Shown one piece after another: positions 24,044-56,216 of a DNA stretch of 64,000 bases. The notes under the pieces are model-generated. The model worked only from the letters and a program-made list of their open reading frames with translations. It was not told the origin of the DNA and made no database searches. The translations under genes and the position numbers were made by a program. Every line of letters begins with the position of its first letter. The first letter of the stretch is position 1. Source of the stretch: Kordia periserrulae (lineage in GTDB: Bacteria; Bacteroidota; Bacteroidia; Flavobacteriales; Flavobacteriaceae); NCBI RefSeq assembly GCF_003054265.1, contig NZ_QBKT01000004.1, positions 372,001-436,000 on the forward strand, read 5' to 3'.

Positions 24044-27000
24044 TTAATCACTAATGTCATTGTCATCATCTACTTTTCTCGCCATGATGCGTTCGTAGAT
24101 TTTTTGAACTTCTTTGCTTAGTGTATTATTAAAATCTGGGTCATTGTCTTTTTCAATAGCAACACGAATAGCTTCTTCAATGATGTACCAAGCCATGCTT
24201 CTGTTTTTGAAATCCATAACAGGTTTTGCCGTGTATGGCAGTGCTGTGTATTTTCCTAGATTGTACTTTGCATCTTTTCGATTCCAACGACAGAAATCTA
24301 AAATGATAGGAATGATTTTCACTTGCTTACTTGGCACCAGCTTCTCTTCTATTTCTTTTTGACGCCGCGCAATGGCAGTTTTGATTTCGTGTTCTTTGAT
24401 ATATTTGGTTGCTAGAAAGTTAGGACTTACCATAAAGAAAATGATATCTGCTTGGTTAAATTTTTCTTGAATTTCCTTATTCCATTCCGTACCAGCTTCC
24501 AATTGCGAGCAATACCACGGATTTTCTATCAAACCATCATCGTGCAACGGTACTAAGTTTTTGATAAACTCATTGACTAGTTTTAAATCGTCTTTGGAAT
24601 AACTGATAGTCACTTTTTTCATGGTTCCTTGTAGTTCTTTGTGTAGGTATATTTTGTTTAGCACATTGTCGTGCAACTGTTGTACATTTACATAGTAATT
24701 TCCGTCAATACTCACGCCAATGTTGACTTTATCACTACGCCAACCGCTGTTTTTTGTTGCTCTCTTCTCTCCTTTGAGTTTTAATTCATGGTTTTTGAAT
24801 CCAATACGGTCAACCTCTTCACTCATACTTTCTAGTTCGTAGCTTGGTTTGCCGTCTTTGTGGATGACTTCGATGATAAAGTCTACTACTTCTTTTTGCA
24901 AGGCACGATTTTTTTCCTGTTGGTCTCCATATAATAATAAACACATTTGCTTACGGTCATATTCTATCAGCAATAATTGTCCGTCTTTTTGTATCACCAA
25001 ACCTTTTTGCCAAAACATATACGAATCGTCCTTTTTAATAACATCTGCATATTCCGTAAATAGGTCAAGCAAAATGTTATTCATCAAATAACGGTCAGAC
25101 GATACTTTGATATTTGCCACACCAAAGGTATAATCTTTCAGCAATTGCAACCACGCAGGCGACGCTTCGGGTAAGTATTGCGGCGCGTACCAACAATCGT
25201 CATGCGTTTTAAAGATTAGTTTAAAATCGCTGAGTAGCTTTTGCAATTCTAAGGCTGTCAATCCCAACTCATTATCTTTTCCAGCTTTTTTCAATTCATC
25301 CGTTAGTTTTCCTTGTTGTTTTTGAAGGTTTTCATTTAAAATTTTATTATAAATCAACTCCAATAACAATTCGGGTTGCGTAAAGATTTTATTGGGCAAT
25401 CTTTTATGAAAATAGAGAATACAGCCTAGCTTGTGCAGTGTTTTTAGAATGGTATTATCTTCTTGATTAAATTTCTTTTTATACTCGGCTAATGTCCAAA
25501 ACTTTTTGGTGGATTTTTCCAAACCATCTCGTATTTCAGCATATATCGGCGGATGCAAATTCTTTTGATGCAACATCTCAATGCGCTCGTCCAACAATTC
25601 AAACATGCCTTCCAAACGCTTTTGATGCAACAAGCTAACAGAACACGTATTGAGCATAAAAGGCGGTCTGCTCGTATCTTTTTCTTTGTGTGGTGAATGA
25701 ATATTGAATTTTTCCAAATAGTGGTCATCCGGAAAATGTGAATAAAATTCTAGATTATCATTTTCATCTGTATGGTCAATACGGTTTTCGATGAGCACCA
25801 TTTCGATGGGACTGTCATGTTTGCTCAATTGCTCCGAACAGCGCAGCCAATAGTCCAATTCAAAAATTTGCTCGCCTTTGATACGTGTATTGGTCATGTC
25901 TTTTGTCCAAAGCAATACATGCAAGGCTTGCGGACTAAAAAACAGTTGATGCGTAGCATGAAAATACTCTTGTCCACCAAAATCCCAAATATGTAATAAT
26001 GGCGTTTCTATACCTTTTTTTTGCAGTTCTTTATAGACCAAGCCATGCGTGGTCTCACTATTTATAGGATACAGATTGGTAATTTTCCTGTCTTTGTACC
26101 ATTGCTCCCAATATGATAGCAAATTTGATTTCCCAATATTCGTATTTCCTAATAACAATACTTTGATATCATGTAGAAGTACCTTTTCTTCGTTCGTTGC
26201 TTTGGCATTTTCGTTTAGCTGCAACCAACGGACGATTTCTTGAGCAGAACTATTTAGAATGGTTTCTGGAATGTTTTTAATTGGATTGTTTGAAAGATAC
26301 AAACTCGTCAACGAAGTCAAGCCTGAAAGTGCTTCGAGATCTTGAATTTGATTATTATCAAGATACAATTTTTTCAACGAAGTTAAGCCAGAAAGTGCTT
26401 TGAGGTCTTGAATTTGATTGAAAGAAATATATAAATACTTTAATAAAGTTAATCCAGAGAATGCTTTGATATCTTGAATTTGATTATAAGAAATATCTAA
26501 TTTCTTCAAAGAAATCAATCCAGAAAGTGATTCGATATCTTGAATTTGATTAGAAGAAAGAGATAACTCCTTCAACGATGTTAATTCAGAAAGTGATTTA
26601 ATATCTTGAATTTGATTATTAGAAAGAGATAACTCCGTCAATGATGTCAATTCAGAAAGCGCTTCTATGTCTTGAATTTGATTTCCATAAAGATTCAAAT
26701 AAATCAACGAAGTCAAGCCAGAAAGTACTTCGAGGTCTTGAATTTGATTATTAGAAAGGTATAAAAAGGACAACGAAGTCAAGCCAGAAAGTGCTTCGAT
26801 GTCTTGAATTTGATTAGCAGAAAGACTCAACAAAGTCAACGAAGTCAAGCCTGAAAGTGCCTCGATATATTGAATTTGATTATTATAAAGATCCAATGTT
26901 GTCAACGAAGTTAACTTTTCTATAAATTTAATATTAGAGATTCCTTTATCTATAATTTTTAACCTTACAAGCTTTCCTTCCTTATTTAATTTATAATTAC

Positions 27001-27082
27001 TTTCATCAAGTTTAAACCCTAATACCGCTTCTACATATTCCAATTCGTTGTTAAAATCTGCTGGGTTTAGTTCTTTTGACAT
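24044..27082 (-). CDS. LRR-Roc-COR-TIR protein (bacterial Roco with TIR domain)
   Basis: The 1012-residue protein has ten leucine-rich repeats of 22 residues (about 56-273) with the consensus LSGLTSLxxLxLSxNQIQDIEA. A Roc GTPase follows, with P-loop GNTNIGKS (312-319) and switch motif DFGGQE (367-372), then a COR region (about 480-800). The C-terminal TIR domain begins with KKVTISYSKDD (822) and includes MVSPNFL and a likely catalytic Glu near 899. No signal peptide or TM is present. Roco proteins are dimeric GTPases, and TIR domains cleave NAD or signal. The layout is like an immune receptor: LRR sensor, GTPase switch, TIR effector. A role in phage defence is inference. Repeats bracket the gene on both sides. 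Confidence 0.9.
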   Translation of the reverse strand: MSKELNPADFNNELEYVEAVLGFKLDESNYKLNKEGKLVRLKIIDKGISNIKFIEKLTSLTTLDLYNNQIQYIEALSGLTSLTLLSLSANQIQDIEALSGLTSLSFLYLSNNQIQDLEVLSGLTSLIYLNLYGNQIQDIEALSELTSLTELSLSNNQIQDIKSLSELTSLKELSLSSNQIQDIESLSGLISLKKLDISYNQIQDIKAFSGLTLLKYLYISFNQIQDLKALSGLTSLKKLYLDNNQIQDLEALSGLTSLTSLYLSNNPIKNIPETILNSSAQEIVRWLQLNENAKATNEEKVLLHDIKVLLLGNTNIGKSNLLSYWEQWYKDRKITNLYPINSETTHGLVYKELQKKGIETPLLHIWDFGGQEYFHATHQLFFSPQALHVLLWTKDMTNTRIKGEQIFELDYWLRCSEQLSKHDSPIEMVLIENRIDHTDENDNLEFYSHFPDDHYLEKFNIHSPHKEKDTSRPPFMLNTCSVSLLHQKRLEGMFELLDERIEMLHQKNLHPPIYAEIRDGLEKSTKKFWTLAEYKKKFNQEDNTILKTLHKLGCILYFHKRLPNKIFTQPELLLELIYNKILNENLQKQQGKLTDELKKAGKDNELGLTALELQKLLSDFKLIFKTHDDCWYAPQYLPEASPAWLQLLKDYTFGVANIKVSSDRYLMNNILLDLFTEYADVIKKDDSYMFWQKGLVIQKDGQLLLIEYDRKQMCLLLYGDQQEKNRALQKEVVDFIIEVIHKDGKPSYELESMSEEVDRIGFKNHELKLKGEKRATKNSGWRSDKVNIGVSIDGNYYVNVQQLHDNVLNKIYLHKELQGTMKKVTISYSKDDLKLVNEFIKNLVPLHDDGLIENPWYCSQLEAGTEWNKEIQEKFNQADIIFFMVSPNFLATKYIKEHEIKTAIARRQKEIEEKLVPSKQVKIIPIILDFCRWNRKDAKYNLGKYTALPYTAKPVMDFKNRSMAWYIIEEAIRVAIEKDNDPDFNNTLSKEVQKIYERIMARKVDDDNDISD
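26265..26915 (-). repeat. 66-base DNA repeats encoding the LRR units
   Basis: The LRR-coding part consists of about ten 66-base units with highly similar DNA; the string CTTGAATTTGATTA recurs in the plus-strand sequence at this spacing. The similarity at the base level, not only in protein, points to recent tandem duplication or gene conversion within the gene, so copy number may vary between strains. Confidence 0.8.
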
Positions 27083-46211: not shown

Positions 46212-48710
46212 TTACTGAATTCCTAACTTGGATGCAATATCGTTGCTTTTTCCACCAGCACTTCGCTGCCTGAAATATTCTCTCGTATTCTCATACAATT
46301 CTGTAACAATGTATTGCAACTCTGCCATATTATTGACACCGTTTGCCTTTTCTCCTTTTTTGAGTAAGGTATCAAATTTACGCTGATTGCTACTGTACGC
46401 ACGGATATCATCATTGTGCACAAAAAAGTAGTAATAGTAACGGTAATCTTCATCGGTTATGTTACGAGATTTTTCTAGCAATGCTATCAATTCTTTTGCT
46501 TTAATTTGAATGACTTGCTTATTTCCAGAGTGTAAAAATACTTGCTCGTCAGCGACTATTTTTTTGTATGCTGCTATTTGTGACTCAGATAAATCGTCTA
46601 ATTTTTCTTCAACTAAAGCTTTGTTTTCTGTATAATTTTGAATTTCTCGAAGAAGTAATGTATTCGCTGCTAATTGATCAAATTTTTGAATGAGCAATCG
46701 TTTCTGTTCGTGGATTTGATATTTCGTTTCTGTAACGGTATCATTTTCATATTCAAGCGCCTCTCCGTATAGCGTAACTAACTTATTTTGAATAGCTTTC
46801 AATTCTCCTGCGATATTTTTATCTGTGATTTTAAGAACTGCTATTTCGTTTTCAATGACATTGATATACTGTTTAATTTCAGTGATTACCTTAGAAAAGT
46901 TGATAACAAATTGATTCGGATTGAATATTTGTTGCTGCTTTAGATTTATAGAATCAATTAAAATACTCACGGTCAAATCGCGCGATTCTGACATTTTAAA
47001 ATGAAGTTCAATATCCAATCCTTTGATGATATCTAATGCCAAATGATGACCTGAAATTTCAATATAACCAATCGGTAAATTACTTGCGGGCGAGTTTCGC
47101 ACAGAACCTTCTACAATATTGATAATCAGCTTATCATCAGAGTCTTTAAGTATGGTTTTGGAAGCCGTTTTGTAAATAGTTTTTGAAAGTGGTAAAATTT
47201 CATTTTTCTTAAAAATTTCTTCTAAATACGTTCCTTCTTCATGATCCAATTCTAAACAAATATCGTTCGGCAATGGCTGTCCCAAAATATTATACAATCC
47301 TTGCGAAATTACGATGTCATCATTTTCATGAATGAGTTCTTTATAGACATTGTACACTTTGACAGAAAATGTATTTTTTGCCCCAGAAATTAACGGTAAG
47401 AATTCGTTAATTTTATCACGAAAACGCATCATTCCTGAATCATAGCCGCCGTCATTTCGAATGATTCGGTAAAAACCTTCTATTTTTTGCTCCAAAATAC
47501 CCACAATCAATTCTTCCTCATCATTGGATTGATTTTCATAAATCCACTGTACAGAAATTTTGGTGACTTTTGCGGTTTCGTTTTCAGTTGCTTTTTCCGC
47601 TACTAAAGTAGATTCTTTGCTTCCTGCAAAGTATGCAGCGCCTGTTACTACAATCTGTGTTGGATCTAAAGAAATATCTAACGGAATATTTGTTCGCTTG
47701 GTTAGTTCCTCTCTAATGTACGGAATTAACGTGGTGCCACCGACCATGATGATTTTATAAATCATTGAAAACTCCAATGCATTTTCAGCCAATAATTCTT
47801 CAATGAGTGAAAAAGAAGTTTCAAATTTGGGCTGAACCAATTTGTTGAAATCATCTCGTGTGATGTCAATCGTTACAAACAAATCATCTTCATCACTTTC
47901 TATTTCGATAAACGTTTCTTCGCGAACAGAAAGCTCTTTTTTCGCTTCTTCTGCTCTAAATAAACATTCGTAATAGAGTTTTTTGTATGAAGCATCATCT
48001 GAAGAAATCATTTTTTTCCAAAGATTTGCATGCGCAGGAGATTCTTTTTCAATAGCGGGACATATTATTTTCTGAATAATTTGCATGTCAAAATCAACAC
48101 CGCCTAAAAAATTATCGCCTTTATGGTCAATAATTTCGAGAGAACGATTAGAAACTTTTGCCAAACTCGCATCAAATGTTCCTCCGCCAAAATCGTAAAC
48201 CAACCAAGTTTCTACTTCTTCAATAGCAAGTTCTTTCACGTTAGAATAGGCAATACACGCTGCAATAGGTTCTTGTAACAGAACTACTTCTTCAAATCCT
48301 GCTGCCAAACCTGCTTCTTTTGTAGCGTTGGATTGCATGGTATTAAAAGATGCTGGAATGGTAATTACGGCTGATTTCACATCAGTATCCAATACAAAAT
48401 TTGACAATTCGCTCAAAATCATCTTTGACAATTCAATAGGGCTCAACATGTCATCCGTTATAGCGACATGGTACTTTTTGTCCGTTCCCATAGCGCGCTT
48501 AAAAGATGCAAAAGTGTTTTCGGCATCTACCAAAAAACGCTCTCTGGCTTTATCTCCCACTAAGATTCTATTTTTTCGATACGAAACTACCGAAGGTAAT
48601 AATTCTCTAAGTCCAACTGGATTTTTATGTACTTGTACTTTTCCATTGGCATACGACGCAATGGCTGAGTTTGTGGTTCCTAAATCGATTCCGATGTTTA
48701 TATTTTTCAA
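46212..48710 (-). CDS. Hsp70-like ATPase with extended divergent C terminus
   Basis: The 832-residue protein has a full Hsp70 nucleotide-binding domain: DLGTTNS (9-15), IPASFN (118-123), VYDFGGGTFD (171-180), GDNFLGGVDFD (198-208) and MVGGTTLIP (322-330). The part after about 380 does not look like the DnaK peptide-binding domain: it has an extra beta region and a long Lys/Glu-rich helical C terminus (about 600-832). No DnaJ or GrpE is adjacent. Translation appears to begin at TTG (48708-48710), since the frame has no ATG close by. It is likely a specialised chaperone or ATPase that works with the small gene 48724-49011. It differs from housekeeping DnaK, which is about 640 residues. Confidence 0.88.
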   Translation of the reverse strand: MKNINIGIDLGTTNSAIASYANGKVQVHKNPVGLRELLPSVVSYRKNRILVGDKARERFLVDAENTFASFKRAMGTDKKYHVAITDDMLSPIELSKMILSELSNFVLDTDVKSAVITIPASFNTMQSNATKEAGLAAGFEEVVLLQEPIAACIAYSNVKELAIEEVETWLVYDFGGGTFDASLAKVSNRSLEIIDHKGDNFLGGVDFDMQIIQKIICPAIEKESPAHANLWKKMISSDDASYKKLYYECLFRAEEAKKELSVREETFIEIESDEDDLFVTIDITRDDFNKLVQPKFETSFSLIEELLAENALEFSMIYKIIMVGGTTLIPYIREELTKRTNIPLDISLDPTQIVVTGAAYFAGSKESTLVAEKATENETAKVTKISVQWIYENQSNDEEELIVGILEQKIEGFYRIIRNDGGYDSGMMRFRDKINEFLPLISGAKNTFSVKVYNVYKELIHENDDIVISQGLYNILGQPLPNDICLELDHEEGTYLEEIFKKNEILPLSKTIYKTASKTILKDSDDKLIINIVEGSVRNSPASNLPIGYIEISGHHLALDIIKGLDIELHFKMSESRDLTVSILIDSINLKQQQIFNPNQFVINFSKVITEIKQYINVIENEIAVLKITDKNIAGELKAIQNKLVTLYGEALEYENDTVTETKYQIHEQKRLLIQKFDQLAANTLLLREIQNYTENKALVEEKLDDLSESQIAAYKKIVADEQVFLHSGNKQVIQIKAKELIALLEKSRNITDEDYRYYYYFFVHNDDIRAYSSNQRKFDTLLKKGEKANGVNNMAELQYIVTELYENTREYFRQRSAGGKSNDIASKLGIQ

Positions 48711-50458: not shown

Positions 50459-51562
50459 TTAAACGTCTTGTTTTATAAACTCCAACCGATGTAACCAATA
50501 GTGATTTTGTTGCCAGCGTTTTTCTATAGTGTAATGATTTACAAGCTTTTCCATATACGCGCTAAATGCATTTTCAACCACATAGCGATAGCCTAAAAAT
50601 GCGTCTTGTTTGCCAGACACATAATCGGCAACAGCATGACCAGCATAAAACCCGGAAGCCAGCGCAGACGTAATTCCATATGAAGAAATTGGGTCGTATG
50701 AGTACGCCGCGTCGCCAACAGCTAGCCATTGTGTTCCATACGGAATTGGCAAACAGCTTGTGCCCGCAGGAACAATTTTAAAATTGTTAATGTTTATTTT
50801 TTGAAGGATTTGTGAAAGATGAATAGTTTTGTGAAATTCTTTCTGAAGAAATGCTTCTGTGTGATGTTTCTGCGGAAGCAAGGTTTTCAGTGTAAACAAC
50901 ATCATCGTGACTTCATTTTCCGCATACGGAGCTACATACCACCAACCATTTTCAGTAGCTTCCACTATGATTTGACGCGGCAATTTTTCTGTAGTTTTAC
51001 AATTAAATGTGATAGCAAATTGAGCATCCAAGGGTTCTTTTTCTACTTGAAAATGTCTGCAAACCGACGCTTTTTTTCCTGTAGCATCAATGATAAAATC
51101 GCCCGTAAGTGTGATGGTTTCTGAATTGCTTTCTACAATTGCCCTAACTTTTGCTTCGTCAGAAACTACTTTTTTTAGCTTATATCCTTTGTAAAATGCT
51201 TGCTGCGTCTGCTGATACACTTCTTGCAACTGCTGTTCAAAAAATAAACGATTGAGCAAAAAACCATGTCCCAAACGGTCTGCAAGGAATTCTTTTTCTT
51301 CCAACATTTCCGTTCCCCAACAACTTTTATTTCCGTAATATACAGTGTGTTGTTCATGTTCCAATAAAGACAAAATCCCCAACTGTTTTAACAACGGTTT
51401 TGCATTGGGCGGAATGGCTTCTCCTGCCTTTCTAATAGGTGTTTTCAATGCTTCTACTACACAACAACGAATGCCTCTCGCGTGCAAGGTTAAAGCGGTG
51501 GCGATGCCCGCAGGTCCGCCACCGATAATAAGTACTTGGTATGTGTGATTAACGTTCTCCAC
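50459..51562 (-). CDS. LodB-like FAD-dependent maturation oxidoreductase
   Basis: The 367-residue flavoprotein starts with the dinucleotide-binding motif GGGPAGIATAL (14-24) and has the second FAD motif VGDAAYSYDPISSYGI (about 286-301), like flavin-dependent halogenases and geranylgeranyl reductases. Its position next to a LodA-like gene identifies it as a LodB/GoxB-type protein, needed to form the cysteine tryptophylquinone cofactor of the partner. Translation starts at GTG (51560-51562), and the gene overlaps the LodA-like gene by 14 bases. The assignment is well supported by the pairing. Confidence 0.85.
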   Translation of the reverse strand: MENVNHTYQVLIIGGGPAGIATALTLHARGIRCCVVEALKTPIRKAGEAIPPNAKPLLKQLGILSLLEHEQHTVYYGNKSCWGTEMLEEKEFLADRLGHGFLLNRLFFEQQLQEVYQQTQQAFYKGYKLKKVVSDEAKVRAIVESNSETITLTGDFIIDATGKKASVCRHFQVEKEPLDAQFAITFNCKTTEKLPRQIIVEATENGWWYVAPYAENEVTMMLFTLKTLLPQKHHTEAFLQKEFHKTIHLSQILQKININNFKIVPAGTSCLPIPYGTQWLAVGDAAYSYDPISSYGITSALASGFYAGHAVADYVSGKQDAFLGYRYVVENAFSAYMEKLVNHYTIEKRWQQNHYWLHRLEFIKQDV

Positions 51563-53501
51563 GTGATTCGCTTCTACGTTTACGTGTACTGCTTTCAGAG
51601 TGTGAAGCCGCTTTTGCTTTCACCGTTTGTTCTCCGTGAATTGTAGCCACTTTTCTCAACATTGGTTTCTCTTCATGTGTAATAGTTTCTGCCGTGATGA
51701 CTTGTTCAAAGGTTGGATCGTGTTCGCCGAATTTTCTTCCTGTTTCTTTCCAAACCTCATCTGGCAAGAAGCCTTCTGCATTTTGCGTATTGGTATCTGC
51801 TTTGGCGATAATTCCTAATTCGTGCCACTCTGCAATCATCAAATTGATTTTTTTCTGGTATACCGAACCGAAATCGCGCAACCAATCTTGACGGTAGTCA
51901 AAATGCTTTAAACGCTGAGCAATATTCAAATCAGGCGCTTCAATACTACGTTTGTAGCTATCTTCACTCAACACCTGATTGGGTACGCGCGCTGCCCAAA
52001 ACGATGGCAATGGCAAATATAAGGTCATATCATATCCTGATAGGCAACTTGCTTCATCCGTTTGCCACGGTACGCCTAACCAACGTGTTAACGAGCCTGG
52101 TCCACTTTTCGCTAACGGTCCGTCTTTGCCGTCAATTTTCGTTCTTCCCAATACAATTTCTGGCGATAGTAACGGTCCAAAATTCAAATCGGTATCTTCT
52201 CCTTCTTCCACCACATTTAGTCTGTATGGCGCTTTCCACATTTGTTTTACACGCATTGGCCATGTCAATTCAATACCTGGATGAAAAGGTCCGCCCAAAC
52301 ATTCTTCCATCGGTGCTTGATTTAAGGAATTTATTTGTTCTGCTGGCGATAATTTTTCAAAAGGAACATACACTTTTGGGGTTCCAGTAGTGAAATCACC
52401 ATTTGCCCATTTTTCTAAACGTGCATATTGTGTTTTTGTGATAGGTAAATCGACAATCGCTATTTTTTCATATTCTCCAAAACCATCTCCGTAAAACGGC
52501 GGTACTTTTGCTGGCGTGTATTCGTTGGAATCTGGATTTCGAAACCATTCAAAAACACGTTGACGTAAGGCTTTGTGTTCGTCAGATGGATTTTCAAGTC
52601 GTTTTCGCAATGCTGGATCGGTAAAGTCTGATGGCGAATTTTTCCCGAATAACATGAAAAATCCTGAGTTTACCCATTGTGTATCAGTCATACGCTCCAA
52701 CATAGGATAAATATGTTCGTAAAACACGACACCTTTTTTCGCTGGATCAGGATAGTTCATTTCACGAATGAATACATCTTGCACAACATCGTTCATGGTA
52801 ACAACTCCGTACAAACCTGGTCCAAAGTTTGGCGGCGTTACCGCAACATTGGCTGGTTCTGCTTCAAATGTATTTCCGTTGATTGTTACTGATGCTCTGA
52901 TAACACCATCGCAAGTATCGTCGTGCCAACCTTGATTGTTGGCAAAGGTTATGGCAGGTTTGTTGTCTTTTGACGCTGATTTTCCATCGCCACCGAAGAA
53001 TAGCAAACGTCCATCAGCATCGGTTTCTACATGTCCTAGTTTTACTTTTTTACCAAAAAATTCACCATCATCAAAATTGTATTGCTCGCCTTTGGTATTT
53101 TTCCCTGTAATCTGTACTGGTGTTGGTTTGATGGCAAGCTGCGAGCGGTCTGCCACATCTGAGTTTCTGTATGCAGACGGAATTCCCGCGCCGGGCAAAT
53201 CTAAGGCATTGTTAAACTCGTACCAAGCGGATTTCACATTGGCTACCTGAATGCGCCAATTGATAGTGTTTCCATCTTTCTCGGTAAGTTCTCCTAAAAC
53301 ATTGCCATTTTCGTCAAAAGCGTAGATTCTGAATCGTGCTACTTGCTTTTTTACGCGTCCGTCGCCATCTTTATAACCGCCTTTTGGCGTTAGTTCTACG
53401 CCAGGAATGTCGGGCGCAAAATAGTATTCGTCTGAGTTTCCAATACGTGCAATTCCGATGGGCGGATAGATTGCTACGCTTTTAATGTTGTTTGTGTTCA
53501 T
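51549..53501 (-). CDS. LodA/GoxA-like cysteine tryptophylquinone oxidase
   Basis: The 650-residue protein matches the LodA/GoxA family from its start (YPPIGIARIGNSDEYYFAPD, a typical opening) through PGAGIPSAYRN, AFDENGNVLGELTEKDG and EECLGGPFHPGIELTWPMRV. In LodA the cofactor is formed from Cys516 and Trp581 with Asp512; here D482-x3-C486 (in DEASCLSG) and W540 (in RQDWLRD) are the best candidates. Known members oxidise L-lysine or glycine to make hydrogen peroxide with antibacterial action. The substrate of this one is unknown. The C terminus ends in a basic tail (TRKRRSESRGER). The maturase follows. Confidence 0.88.
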   Translation of the reverse strand: MNTNNIKSVAIYPPIGIARIGNSDEYYFAPDIPGVELTPKGGYKDGDGRVKKQVARFRIYAFDENGNVLGELTEKDGNTINWRIQVANVKSAWYEFNNALDLPGAGIPSAYRNSDVADRSQLAIKPTPVQITGKNTKGEQYNFDDGEFFGKKVKLGHVETDADGRLLFFGGDGKSASKDNKPAITFANNQGWHDDTCDGVIRASVTINGNTFEAEPANVAVTPPNFGPGLYGVVTMNDVVQDVFIREMNYPDPAKKGVVFYEHIYPMLERMTDTQWVNSGFFMLFGKNSPSDFTDPALRKRLENPSDEHKALRQRVFEWFRNPDSNEYTPAKVPPFYGDGFGEYEKIAIVDLPITKTQYARLEKWANGDFTTGTPKVYVPFEKLSPAEQINSLNQAPMEECLGGPFHPGIELTWPMRVKQMWKAPYRLNVVEEGEDTDLNFGPLLSPEIVLGRTKIDGKDGPLAKSGPGSLTRWLGVPWQTDEASCLSGYDMTLYLPLPSFWAARVPNQVLSEDSYKRSIEAPDLNIAQRLKHFDYRQDWLRDFGSVYQKKINLMIAEWHELGIIAKADTNTQNAEGFLPDEVWKETGRKFGEHDPTFEQVITAETITHEEKPMLRKVATIHGEQTVKAKAASHSESSTRKRRSESRGER

Positions 53502-53516
53502 GGTTTTTTGTGTTGA

Positions 53517-56216
53517 TTAAATTATAGTTTTTCGTGTTCTAAAATGATTTAGCGGATCTTTTGAGTACTTTTCTTTGATGTTGATTAAATCTTTATAACT
53601 GTCGCCAAAATAGGTTTTGGTAGGAATGGAAGCATCTTTAAAGCTGATAAACGCACCACTAGTGTTTTCTATTTCATAATCGCGGCATTTTTGCATCCAA
53701 TCTAACGCGCGGTTCGTGGCATCATAGACAGGATTATTTTGCGCTTCTTCTTTTTGAATCAATTCGGTATTCCACCATGTTTGGTATTGAATGGTGTATG
53801 CGCAGTCTTTGTATGGAAATGCACTTTGTTTTTTATCTTCCTCAGACATATTGTCGTAAAACTCACCTACAATCGCGCCAAGCGTAATATAGTTAAAAAG
53901 TCCGTACGAACGATTGTTTGGAAGAATCAATTCAGACGTTAATGAGCTTATAAGTTGACTGATTCCTTTTTCGCACAATCCTTTTTTGTGTGCCAATCGC
54001 GAAGTGATTTTGTGTGGTGCTGGTGCATCTAAATCCGGTGGTAATGGTTTTTTTGTGAATATTTGTTCAAATACCTCTTTTACTGCATCCAAGCTACTGT
54101 TTTTAGCTAAATTTCCACCGATACGATAGATTTTATCATAGGTTGCTTCTCCTCTATTTGCTGTGTTTTCAGCGGTTTTAAGCGTTGTAGTATCTGTATT
54201 TGCCAATCGGATGGTTCTTTTGATGGCACTAAACGATTCTCTGTCCCACGCACTCATCAATCCGTCATCAGCATAGTTTAAGCGTTGTCCACCTTTACCG
54301 ATGAGTCGTAATTCATAAGGTTGCGAATCTCCTGTAAAACAATCGTTTACAAATGCGAGTAAACTTTCTTCGGTTCCTTGCCAATATCCGTACATGATAC
54401 AGTTATGAATGGCTTCTTCTGAATTGAATGTTACTTCGTCTTCTAAGTGTTTTCCTGATACTTTTAAATTCGTACCAATCAATTGATCGTTTTTAAAATC
54501 GCTTCCCGAGTATTCATTGTTTTTATTGATAATGACATCTTGCCAAGCTCCGATGATGTTTTTAGTTAGCTTGTTTTCTGAATTGATGGTAATTTTTGAA
54601 GGATTTGTTTTGTCATACGGATTCCACTCCAATTCGTATTTGATAAGTTTTTTGGGTAATGGAAAGACTTTTAGTTGCAATTCGGTAACGATTCCGTAAC
54701 TCATTCCACCGCCGCCTTTTAGTGCCCATAACAAATCTTTTTTATTACTTCCGTCAGATTTTAATTGTACGACGTCACCATTTCCAAGTACGATTGTTGC
54801 ACCAATTAATCCTTCGCAATTCATTCCGTGTTTTCGCGTCCACGGTCCCCAACCGCCACCAAAGGTAAATCCAGCCACACCCACCGTAGCACAGGTTCCG
54901 TGCGGAATCATGACACCTTCCTCAGCCAGTTGTGGCGTGAGGTCTCTGAATCGAATTCCAGGTCCGATACGCGCATATTCTTTATCATGACTTACGTCTA
55001 CATGATTGATACGTGTCATGTCTAACAAAATCACGTCCGTTCCTGTACATTCTGCTTCATGATCGTGTCCGCCAGAGCGTACTCTGATAGGTAAATTATT
55101 CGCAATCGCATCTTTATACACGCGTTCCACATCTTTGGTACATTCGCAATAGATAATCACAAACGGTTTTAGTTGAAAACGTCGGTTAAATACCTGACTC
55201 GCCTTGTTGAATTCAATTTCATTATATAAATTTCCGCCAGGCGTTTGTATTTGATCGCTTTTAAGATATCCTTGCAATCCATTGAGAAAATTGTAGACAT
55301 TTCTTGCATTTACGACCACCATATTTTCTCCAATATTGATGCTTGCTTCCGAAATAAAGGTTTCGTTTTTCGTGATGGACACATCGTCTACCAAATCTTT
55401 TTCGGAAACCGCACTGATAACTGTATCAAATCTGTTGATATTTTTTAGAATGTTGATTGTGGTACTTCCGCTGCTATTTTCATAGCAAAGTTCTTGATTG
55501 ATGACAGACGTAATGCTGCTTGATAAAAACGAAATACAGACTTCTTCGTGTACTTGAATTTCTTCTGGAACGTAGTCTATATATGAGGTTCTACTTTTGA
55601 GTTTGAGGGTTTCAAAAGACGTATTTCGAATTTTTAGTTGTACTTCAAATTTGAGACTTTCTGGAAAAATATGGTCTATTTCTTCTTTGATGAATTTTAT
55701 AATCGTGATGAGATAGTTGTTCGTATTACTAACTTCTTCCATTGTAATTTTGGAGACTTCGTATGGAAATAGAGCTTTACTCCAAATCGCAATTTGTCCA
55801 AGTTTTCCGTTAAAAAAGTTGTTTTCATGACCGCCAACCGTAAAATTAGAAGTTGTATGTTTCGCAACCGTTTCTGTATGGTTTTCTAGCGTAAGCGAAA
55901 AGTCATTGATGTGTAAGCGGAGAAAATTTTCCGTTTTTACTGCAGTAATGTGATACCAATGTTCGTCGAGTACTGAAATGTTTGTTGCTGTAATGCTTCG
56001 CGATTCATTATTTTCAGTCACAGAAAACGTGATATTTCCTTGATTGTTGATTTGTAAAGCGAAAGACGTTTCGTCGGTGTGTTTTGAAACCAACTCTCCA
56101 GCAGCAGCTGTTTGCAACCAACATTGGATAGTGAAATCGGATTCTTGGAAGTTGTTTTCGGTTAGTTCTTTGTGTTTCAGGTTGTTTTTACCTGAAAATG
56201 TGGCAGTGTAATTCAT
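53517..56216 (-). CDS. LamG-fused berberine-bridge-type FAD oxidase
   Basis: The 899-residue protein begins without signal peptide with a concanavalin/LamG-like domain (about 1-160, FTVGGHENNFFNGKLGQIAIWS), and has a beta-rich middle (to about 340). It then has a PCMH FAD domain with H384 in RSGGHD and C442 in GTCATVG, the two sites of bicovalent flavin in BBE-like enzymes. The C-terminal BBE motif is SYKDLINIKEKY with DPLNHF. It probably oxidises a sugar or alcohol and makes hydrogen peroxide. It is the first gene of an operon with the LodA-like and LodB-like genes, 15 bases apart. Joint action with a quinoprotein is a new-looking pairing. Confidence 0.88.
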   Translation of the reverse strand: MNYTATFSGKNNLKHKELTENNFQESDFTIQCWLQTAAAGELVSKHTDETSFALQINNQGNITFSVTENNESRSITATNISVLDEHWYHITAVKTENFLRLHINDFSLTLENHTETVAKHTTSNFTVGGHENNFFNGKLGQIAIWSKALFPYEVSKITMEEVSNTNNYLITIIKFIKEEIDHIFPESLKFEVQLKIRNTSFETLKLKSRTSYIDYVPEEIQVHEEVCISFLSSSITSVINQELCYENSSGSTTINILKNINRFDTVISAVSEKDLVDDVSITKNETFISEASINIGENMVVVNARNVYNFLNGLQGYLKSDQIQTPGGNLYNEIEFNKASQVFNRRFQLKPFVIIYCECTKDVERVYKDAIANNLPIRVRSGGHDHEAECTGTDVILLDMTRINHVDVSHDKEYARIGPGIRFRDLTPQLAEEGVMIPHGTCATVGVAGFTFGGGWGPWTRKHGMNCEGLIGATIVLGNGDVVQLKSDGSNKKDLLWALKGGGGMSYGIVTELQLKVFPLPKKLIKYELEWNPYDKTNPSKITINSENKLTKNIIGAWQDVIINKNNEYSGSDFKNDQLIGTNLKVSGKHLEDEVTFNSEEAIHNCIMYGYWQGTEESLLAFVNDCFTGDSQPYELRLIGKGGQRLNYADDGLMSAWDRESFSAIKRTIRLANTDTTTLKTAENTANRGEATYDKIYRIGGNLAKNSSLDAVKEVFEQIFTKKPLPPDLDAPAPHKITSRLAHKKGLCEKGISQLISSLTSELILPNNRSYGLFNYITLGAIVGEFYDNMSEEDKKQSAFPYKDCAYTIQYQTWWNTELIQKEEAQNNPVYDATNRALDWMQKCRDYEIENTSGAFISFKDASIPTKTYFGDSYKDLINIKEKYSKDPLNHFRTRKTII

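Follow-up and report, generated by a model that had tools for sequence, protein, structure and literature searches.

Our analysis of a 64,000-nucleotide stretch of Kordia periserrulae DNA (the window) found an operon in which a gene for a berberine bridge enzyme (BBE)-like flavin oxidase lies directly before the genes for a LodA-like oxidase of the cysteine tryptophylquinone (CTQ) type and its LodB-like maturase, and shows that this pairing of BBE with lodA is recurrent but not obligate. The reading that we favour, at somewhat less than even odds, is a two-oxidase cassette in a route for an amino-acid-derived small molecule; on the evidence below, a place in small-molecule metabolism fits the operon better than the role of a secreted peroxide weapon. 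Most LodA-like branches have no known substrate, and an operon that recurrently joins an uncharacterised LodA branch to a rare, putatively bicovalent flavin oxidase with an altered site offers a handle on the products of these enzymes.

A compact operon and a recurrent pairing

The operon consists of three consecutive open reading frames (ORFs) that run from 56216 to 50459, with a 15-bp gap between the BBE gene and lodA followed by a 14-nt overlap of lodA with lodB:

53517 to 56216, minus strand: gene for a BBE-like flavin oxidase with an N-terminal LamG domain (899-aa ORF; Pfam domains)
51549 to 53501, minus strand: gene for a LodA-like CTQ oxidase (650 aa; LodA_N and LodA_C above the Pfam cut-off)
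50459 to 51562, minus strand: gene for a LodB/GoxB-like flavoprotein, the putative maturase (367 aa; GTG start; overlaps lodA by 14 nt)

The ORFs, the gap and the overlap confirm a compact operon, as an earlier note on this DNA had claimed in describing three genes in tight order. Since a DEAD-box helicase gene diverges upstream and another gene converges downstream, the trio looks like a single stand-alone operon; scans of it for consensus promoters and terminators gave scores at or below those of shuffled background. The Pfam domain scores of the operon proteins are far beyond chance, and all three genes are under purifying selection, with ratios of nonsynonymous to synonymous substitution rates (dN/dS) of 0.05 to 0.19 between the window and other Kordia: 0.12 to 0.15 for the BBE gene (five comparisons), 0.05 to 0.12 for lodA (four) and 0.16 to 0.19 for lodB (three).

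Among 11 Kordia genomes, with orthologues called at a minimum of 80% identity for lodA and 64% for the BBE gene, lodA is present in eight, the BBE gene in eight and the adjacent pair in six. The search for pairing beyond the genus used named LodA loci, taken as the best 80 of 270; for 68 of these 80, the sequence before lodA reaches 3 kb or more, and a BBE of the window's subfamily occurs in the fetched stretch of eight of the 80. Four of these eight loci are from Kordia and carry a BBE with LamG. A LamG-free BBE stands directly upstream of lodA in Chryseobacterium gregarium, in Pedobacter alluvionis and in a metagenome-assembled genome (MAG) of Chryseobacterium, while in a Cryomorphaceae MAG (L100) it lies on the opposite strand past lodB, about 3 kb past lodA, and was counted as nearby, not adjacent. 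In an Owenweeksia MAG (G188, L084), the BBE gene and lodA share a contig at a distance of about 29 kb. In a quick tree of LodA proteins, which has some long branches and leaves out 15 distant rows and the split ORF L151 (also excluded from the conservation counts below), the BBE-adjacent LodAs occupy two separate deep clades, and the pairing has thus arisen or been retained more than once. In close relatives of the Chryseobacterium set the BBE is absent (such as L108) or on another contig (G247).

A sample of 296 genomes from the order gave a similar picture of two rare genes that tend to occur together. The BBE search matched 15 of these genomes at 1e-20, of which nine (2.3e-30 to 1.9e-23) were taken as general BBEs; the subfamily, defined by a best E below 1e-50, is present in six (G000, G188, G212, G218, G247 and, as a contig-edge fragment, G150), and LodA_C is present in 14. 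Both occur together in four genomes, where 0.28 would be expected (Fisher p 4.5e-5; 6.4e-4 once the window is excluded), by a test that ignores relatedness, uses a threshold set after the matches had been seen and assumes identical genome samples.

Besides these limits of the test, several observations weigh against a functional link between the two oxidases. No such BBE is found in the fetched stretch of 72 of the 80 LodA loci; G212 and G150 have the BBE with no LodA match, and G232 shows the reverse. In a phylum sample of 395 genomes there is a LodA match in 11 and a BBE in the window's own genome only, so most LodA genomes do without the BBE. Within Kordia, lodAB occurs without the BBE gene in G681 and G685 (80% and 83% identity to the window LodA), and the BBE gene occurs without lodAB in G688 and in G687, the latter copy with an in-frame stop; the lone G688 copy keeps a dN/dS of 0.15, which indicates that the BBE can be constrained without lodAB. 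Conservation of the BBE gene with lodAB, on which the earlier note had staked its reading, therefore holds in part: the pair is adjacent in most of the Kordia genomes sampled and recurs in a second deep LodA clade, and its halves are split in four Kordia. The lone halves sit in the same Kordia region, whose neighbourhood is common to the nine loci read (truA in 9/9, DUF2461 in 8/9, the helicase in 7/9), with a chondroitinase-B-like gene where the helicase stands in G687; tblastn beside the two lone BBE genes found no lodA or lodB remnant, and one further genome, G690, has neither lodA nor BBE. Kordia algicida OT-1 (L075) carries the full trio, and K. aestuariivivens (L093) carries lodAB only. 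Such natural losses of either half inside one genus permit a comparative test.

Candidate cofactor sites, the LodA tail and cellular location

The BBE protein carries the following features:

55752 to 56168, minus strand: LamG (Laminin_G_3), residues 17-155 (Pfam 61.8 bits, cut-off 27.6)
55212 to 55691, minus strand: unassigned region, residues ~176-335, observed in the Kordia copies of the BBE gene alone
54762 to 55160, minus strand: FAD_binding_4, residues 353-485 (Pfam 96 bits, cut-off 26.4)
53523 to 53654, minus strand: BBE C-terminal domain, residues 855-898 (Pfam 28.3 bits, cut-off 20.6)
55065 to 55067, minus strand: H384 codon, candidate 8-alpha-histidyl flavin link, invariant in 15/15 aligned BBE relatives
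54891 to 54893, minus strand: C442 codon, candidate 6-S-cysteinyl flavin link, invariant in 15/15
53640 to 53642, minus strand: F859 codon, where the BBE 'NY' motif has its Tyr, F in 15/15

With FAD_binding_4, BBE and LamG all above their cut-offs, the protein is the BBE-like enzyme with an N-terminal lectin-like domain that had been described before, and the invariance of H384 and C442 supports, as far as sequence can, their earlier proposal as bicovalent flavin sites. The alignment also shows two unusual motifs, GGHDHE.EC and FISFKD. The Tyr of the 'NY' motif is the catalytic base in sugar and cannabinoid BBE-like oxidases. Since FISFKD aligns with AYQNYID of PpBBE-like 1, although the local match is weak there, the usual Tyr appears to correspond to F859 in the Kordia enzyme, and the mark of a sugar-type BBE is replaced by Phe in all 15 proteins.

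LamG was detected in all five Kordia BBE N-termini scanned with Pfam and in 7 of the 15 aligned BBEs, all seven from Kordia and none of them among the eight non-Kordia proteins; it is the fastest-evolving part, with a dN/dS of 0.21 against 0.10 for the core in the one pair compared (window and L073). The stretch that separates LamG from the flavin domain (residues ~176-335) gave no convincing Pfam match. That the N-terminal LamG region might be a module common to other proteins was rejected, as full-length matches to its profile come from the Kordia BBE gene only and the other matches (E 7e-8 or weaker) fall within about positions 6-195, the LamG part; against the PDB, the profile found 12 sequences at E up to 1, including eight designed trefoils and two pentraxins. 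An AlphaFold2 model of the LamG region was too poor to use (mean predicted local distance difference test score, pLDDT, 44.6), and a Foldseek search with the model of the BBE core, itself of low confidence (pLDDT 60.3, predicted template modelling score 0.67), listed 50 matches, all BBE/VAO-type, at root-mean-square deviations of 10.6-13.0.

The LodA-like protein scores 238.6 bits for LodA_N and 117.6 bits for LodA_C, both above cut-off, and its closest named LodA is that of Kordia sp. TARA_039_SRF (95% identity). It falls below both equivalog cut-offs, with 471.4 bits for the GoxA model NF038173 (glycine oxidase; cut-off 750) and 162.3 bits for the LodA model NF038172 (lysine epsilon-oxidase; cut-off 600), and we therefore regard it as LodA-like and as neither LodA nor GoxA proper. 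The third protein matches Pfam FAD_binding_3, and its best NCBIfam models are GoxB (211.5) and LodB (204), both below the equivalog cut-off of 400. The two LodA domains, the adjoining lodB-like gene and these top models agree with the earlier identification of a LodA-like oxidase and its maturase. The sites that matter in the oxidase are as follows:

52044 to 52046, minus strand: C486 codon, predicted CTQ cysteine, aligns with LodA C516 and GoxA C682, conserved in 87/87
51996 to 51998, minus strand: W502 codon, predicted CTQ tryptophan, aligns with LodA W581 and GoxA W697, conserved in 87/87
51552 to 51590, minus strand: C-terminal basic tail, ...STRKRRSESRGER, with an RxE[RL] end in 23/27 clade members

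For LodA, C516 and W581 are the published CTQ residues (PMC4417212). In the solved LodA sequence C516 lies in PWQADFFNC and W581 in AYYSYWWPPQSP, and their equivalents in the solved sequence of GoxA are C682 and W697 (numbering checked); both pairs align with C486 and W502 of the window. Across 87 aligned LodA-like proteins, columns 482, 486 and 502 never vary (D, C and W, respectively), and column 540 is W in 86 of them. Of the residues put forward earlier, the cysteine C486 stands, and W540 (51882-51884) is rejected and to be replaced by W502, because the published LodA and GoxA pairs align with C486 and W502. D482 corresponds to Asp678 of GoxA, a residue discussed in PMC7876137. NCBIfam models failed to sort the LodA copies into the published groups. 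Kordia algicida carries LodA groups II and IVB (PMC4417212), and its other LodA copy clusters in the quick tree with the long second copy of another genus; with that copy taken as group II, the window LodA is probably, by elimination only, a member of group IVB.

LodAs of the window's clade finish in a short basic tail behind a variable linker. The motif RxE[RL] ends 23 of the 27 complete LodAs at 47% identity or more (L089, cut off by a contig end, is omitted), the remaining four ending in RGQL, RHEM, RDSR and RDTR, and it ends none of 52 more distant LodAs, with L101 (44%) ending in RDEK; the tail-bearing clade spans L073-L100 and L146. A by-product of the lodA/lodB overlap was considered and rejected: the tail is kept where the lodB frame begins after the end of lodA (L084, L100, L086, L094, L087, L090, L095 and L096), which makes the tail a feature of the protein. 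Maturase and oxidase partners of the LodA/LodB type are reported to be specific. Our guess is that the tail docks LodB, and its conservation makes it a testable candidate for how a maturase recognises its own partner.

A crude N-terminal hydrophobicity test detected no signal peptide (best 12-residue Kyte-Doolittle mean 0.89 for the BBE and 1.37 for LodA), as had been noted before, and the BBE frame extends just nine codons further upstream (908 against 899). Pfam found no type IX secretion system (T9SS) sorting tail in the three operon proteins, and the same library detects one in another Kordia protein; secretion by this system was rejected for lack of such a tail. LodA itself is not known to have a classical signal peptide. 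PfaP, a protein of the LodA group, is described as extracellular (PMC4699246). On these two grounds export is still conceivable.

Gene company of relatives and possible functions

In the small-molecule route that we tentatively propose, LodB, a flavin adenine dinucleotide (FAD) protein, would complete the CTQ of LodA from C486 and W502, and LodA would oxidise a primary amine or amino acid to an imine, aldehyde or keto product with release of ammonia and hydrogen peroxide (H2O2). LamG-BBE, its FAD held by H384 and C442 in a non-standard active site, would contribute an accompanying two-electron oxidation to this route and pass the electrons to O2, and the LodAB and BBE halves would help each other without strict interdependence. 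CTQ formation, covalent flavin, oxidase chemistry and H2O2 are what knowledge of the two families leads us to expect of this operon, H2O2 being a likely product of both oxidases; that both serve one route starting from an amino acid we infer by association only.

We place LodA and BBE in the oxidation of amino-acid-derived small molecules mainly because, when apart, both keep the same kind of partners. In three other genera of the window's LodA clade, the genes upstream of lodA differ. Those of Aquimarina (L077-L079) encode a flavin amine oxidase, a thiamine diphosphate (ThDP) enzyme resembling indolepyruvate decarboxylase, and a nucleoside-hydrolase-like protein; those of Lacihabitans (L081) encode a ThDP enzyme of the same kind together with an amine-oxidase-like protein; and those of Dyadobacter (L086) encode a ferritin-like protein (PF12902), a radical SAM protein and a flavoprotein resembling halogenases. 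On two Pseudoalteromonas replicons (1.2-1.3 Mb), a member of the BBE subfamily (44%) has as its neighbours an amine oxidase resembling VioA and a ThDP enzyme, the latter 42% identical to that of Lacihabitans, with no lodA within 9 kb and a more distant lodA (29.5%) more than 150 kb away on the same replicons. This likeness has its limits, which count against our proposal: the partner amine oxidases of Lacihabitans and Pseudoalteromonas are only distantly alike (31% over 207 residues), and that of Aquimarina gave no BLAST match. The resemblance to VioA is loose, given model scores of 81.7 and 32.2 bits against a cut-off of 600.

Across the 80 loci, the PF12902 cluster occurs in five loci from five genera and the amine-oxidase cluster in four loci from four genera, with two of five and two of four members, respectively, confirmed by Pfam; generic two-component genes recur near lodA more widely than either. 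The protein at L136 3170-5155 has no Pfam family, and its label comes from a BLAST match to the amine-oxidase-like protein of Lacihabitans (58%). Four loci carry, 19-27 bp upstream of lodA, a gene for a 340-342-aa protein:

L087 8958-9980, strand not given: stand-alone catalase-like gene
L088 8951-9979, strand not given: stand-alone catalase-like gene
L090 8960-9982, strand not given: stand-alone catalase-like gene
L139 8925-9953, strand not given: stand-alone catalase-like gene

These proteins share 42-47% identity with the catalase-like domain at the N-terminus of L026, a fused protein; Pfam assigns them no family at E up to 0.1, so that their label is that of the BLAST match to L026, which itself matches Catalase weakly (21.6 bits, cut-off 25). 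Catalase-like is the published label of such LodA fusions (PMC4417212, Table 3).

LamG is common in extracellular proteins, and the earlier note had suggested peroxide-based antagonism or biofilm dispersal, in which both oxidases would be exported non-classically, LamG would bind the BBE to glycans, and H2O2 would harm competitors or algae or trigger dispersal; sugar targeting through LamG is a guess. LodA and its relatives are antimicrobial through H2O2 and active in biofilm dispersal, with PfaP described as extracellular (PMC4699246, PMC4417212), and an algicidal amino acid oxidase of Aquimarina is named in the reference list of PMC10565126. These precedents give no direct support for such a role of this operon, in which neither a signal peptide nor a sorting tail was detected, and LamG is missing from all aligned BBEs outside Kordia, the BBE has Phe for the usual 'NY' Tyr and the company of related genes is metabolic. 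In the main text of the K. algicida algicide paper, a search for LodA, berberine or FAD gave no hit (PMC10565126). Taken together, we consider a peroxide weapon unlikely.

It is also possible, if somewhat doubtful, that the operon holds two independent oxidases under a common promoter, co-transcribed for convenience only. The persistence of each half alone in Kordia, the purifying selection on a lone BBE gene and the several genomes with just one of the two would fit this, but pairing in two deep LodA clades and the enrichment of BBE with LodA exceed what is expected of chance neighbours. That the BBE gives additional help in maturing the cofactor of LodA seems very improbable to us: its gene does lie directly before lodA, and CTQ formation does take several oxidation steps (PMC7876137), but LodB/GoxB is the known maturase, and lodAB persists without the BBE in G681, in G685 and at the great majority of the LodA loci, for which reason a requirement for the BBE was rejected. 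Beyond the two-oxidase route proposed above, one may speculate, unlikely though this is, that this LodA branch is the amine-oxidising member of modular small-molecule operons with an interchangeable partner slot, which would be filled by a BBE-like oxidase, by a flavin amine oxidase with a ThDP decarboxylase-like enzyme, or by a ferritin-like or catalase-like protein; the imine or aldehyde made by LodA would become a natural product through the partner, and the tail would be a docking signal for LodB or that partner.

Some loci of LodA relatives hold further genes that we record as observations in their own right. In Dyadobacter diqingensis (L086, 3223-9908), the genes before lodA also include one for a 755-aa protein that matches LodA_C weakly (21.7 bits, cut-off 25), and the radical SAM protein comes closest to the maturase of quinohemoprotein amine dehydrogenase (299 bits, cut-off 453); this gene set is perhaps a second kind of quinone maturation. 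L100 (6472-9849) has, directly before lodA, a protein of radical SAM/SPASM-like type and a peptide beta-hydroxylase domain of the aKG-HExxH type (79.6 bits, cut-off 40), a hint of peptide modification nearby. A Mucilaginibacter MAG (L106, 8177-9955) encodes, 37 bp upstream of lodA, a 592-aa protein with no Pfam match; read by eye, its beginning resembles that of a lipoprotein, and a CxxCH motif lies close to its C-terminus. In an Owenweeksia MAG (L029, 989-3845), ThiF (E1-like) and JAB genes stand about 2.5 kb beyond lodB with one for a matchless 236-aa protein, a row that by its look resembles a ubiquitin-like conjugation operon. Elsewhere in the window, the minus strand encodes a 1012-aa LRR-Roc-COR protein with a C-terminal TIR domain (24044-27082) and an 832-aa Hsp70-like protein (46212-48710), whose HSP70 match in Pfam is limited to residues 6-363 and whose gene adjoins a 101-aa ORF with no Pfam match.

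Relation to known systems

In the abstract, parts 1-2 of section 4 and section 8 of PMC4417212, no BBE is named among lodA neighbours or fusions; the neighbours given there are lodB, small proteins, tyrosinases, multicopper oxidases and ferritin-like genes, and the fusions involve catalase-like, pfam14518 and vWA domains. Our literature search, partial in its coverage, found no relevant work that joins LodA with berberine-type enzymes.

The Kordia operon shares with LodA/LodB and GoxA/GoxB the LodA_N and LodA_C domains, the CTQ Cys and Trp, the conserved His and Asp, and a flavoprotein gene directly after the oxidase gene, and it differs from them by its scores below the equivalog cut-offs, the extra BBE gene before lodA and the basic tail of LodA. 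Group III proteins, in which LodA is fused to a catalase-like domain (PMC4417212), likewise tie a second redox protein to a LodA-like oxidase, although in Kordia this second protein is a BBE encoded by a separate gene. With the bicovalent BBE-like oxidases (glucooligosaccharide oxidase, PpBBE-like 1, berberine bridge enzyme and EncM-type oxygenases), the Kordia BBE has the FAD_binding_4 and BBE domains and the His and Cys flavin motifs in common, and it stands apart by the Phe in place of the 'NY' Tyr, the GGHDHE.EC motif, and the LamG and unassigned regions in front. Finally, VioA-type flavin amine oxidase operons bear a loose resemblance, in that LodA relatives and BBE relatives each adjoin a flavin amine oxidase and an indolepyruvate-decarboxylase-like enzyme; the Kordia operon contains neither of these enzymes.

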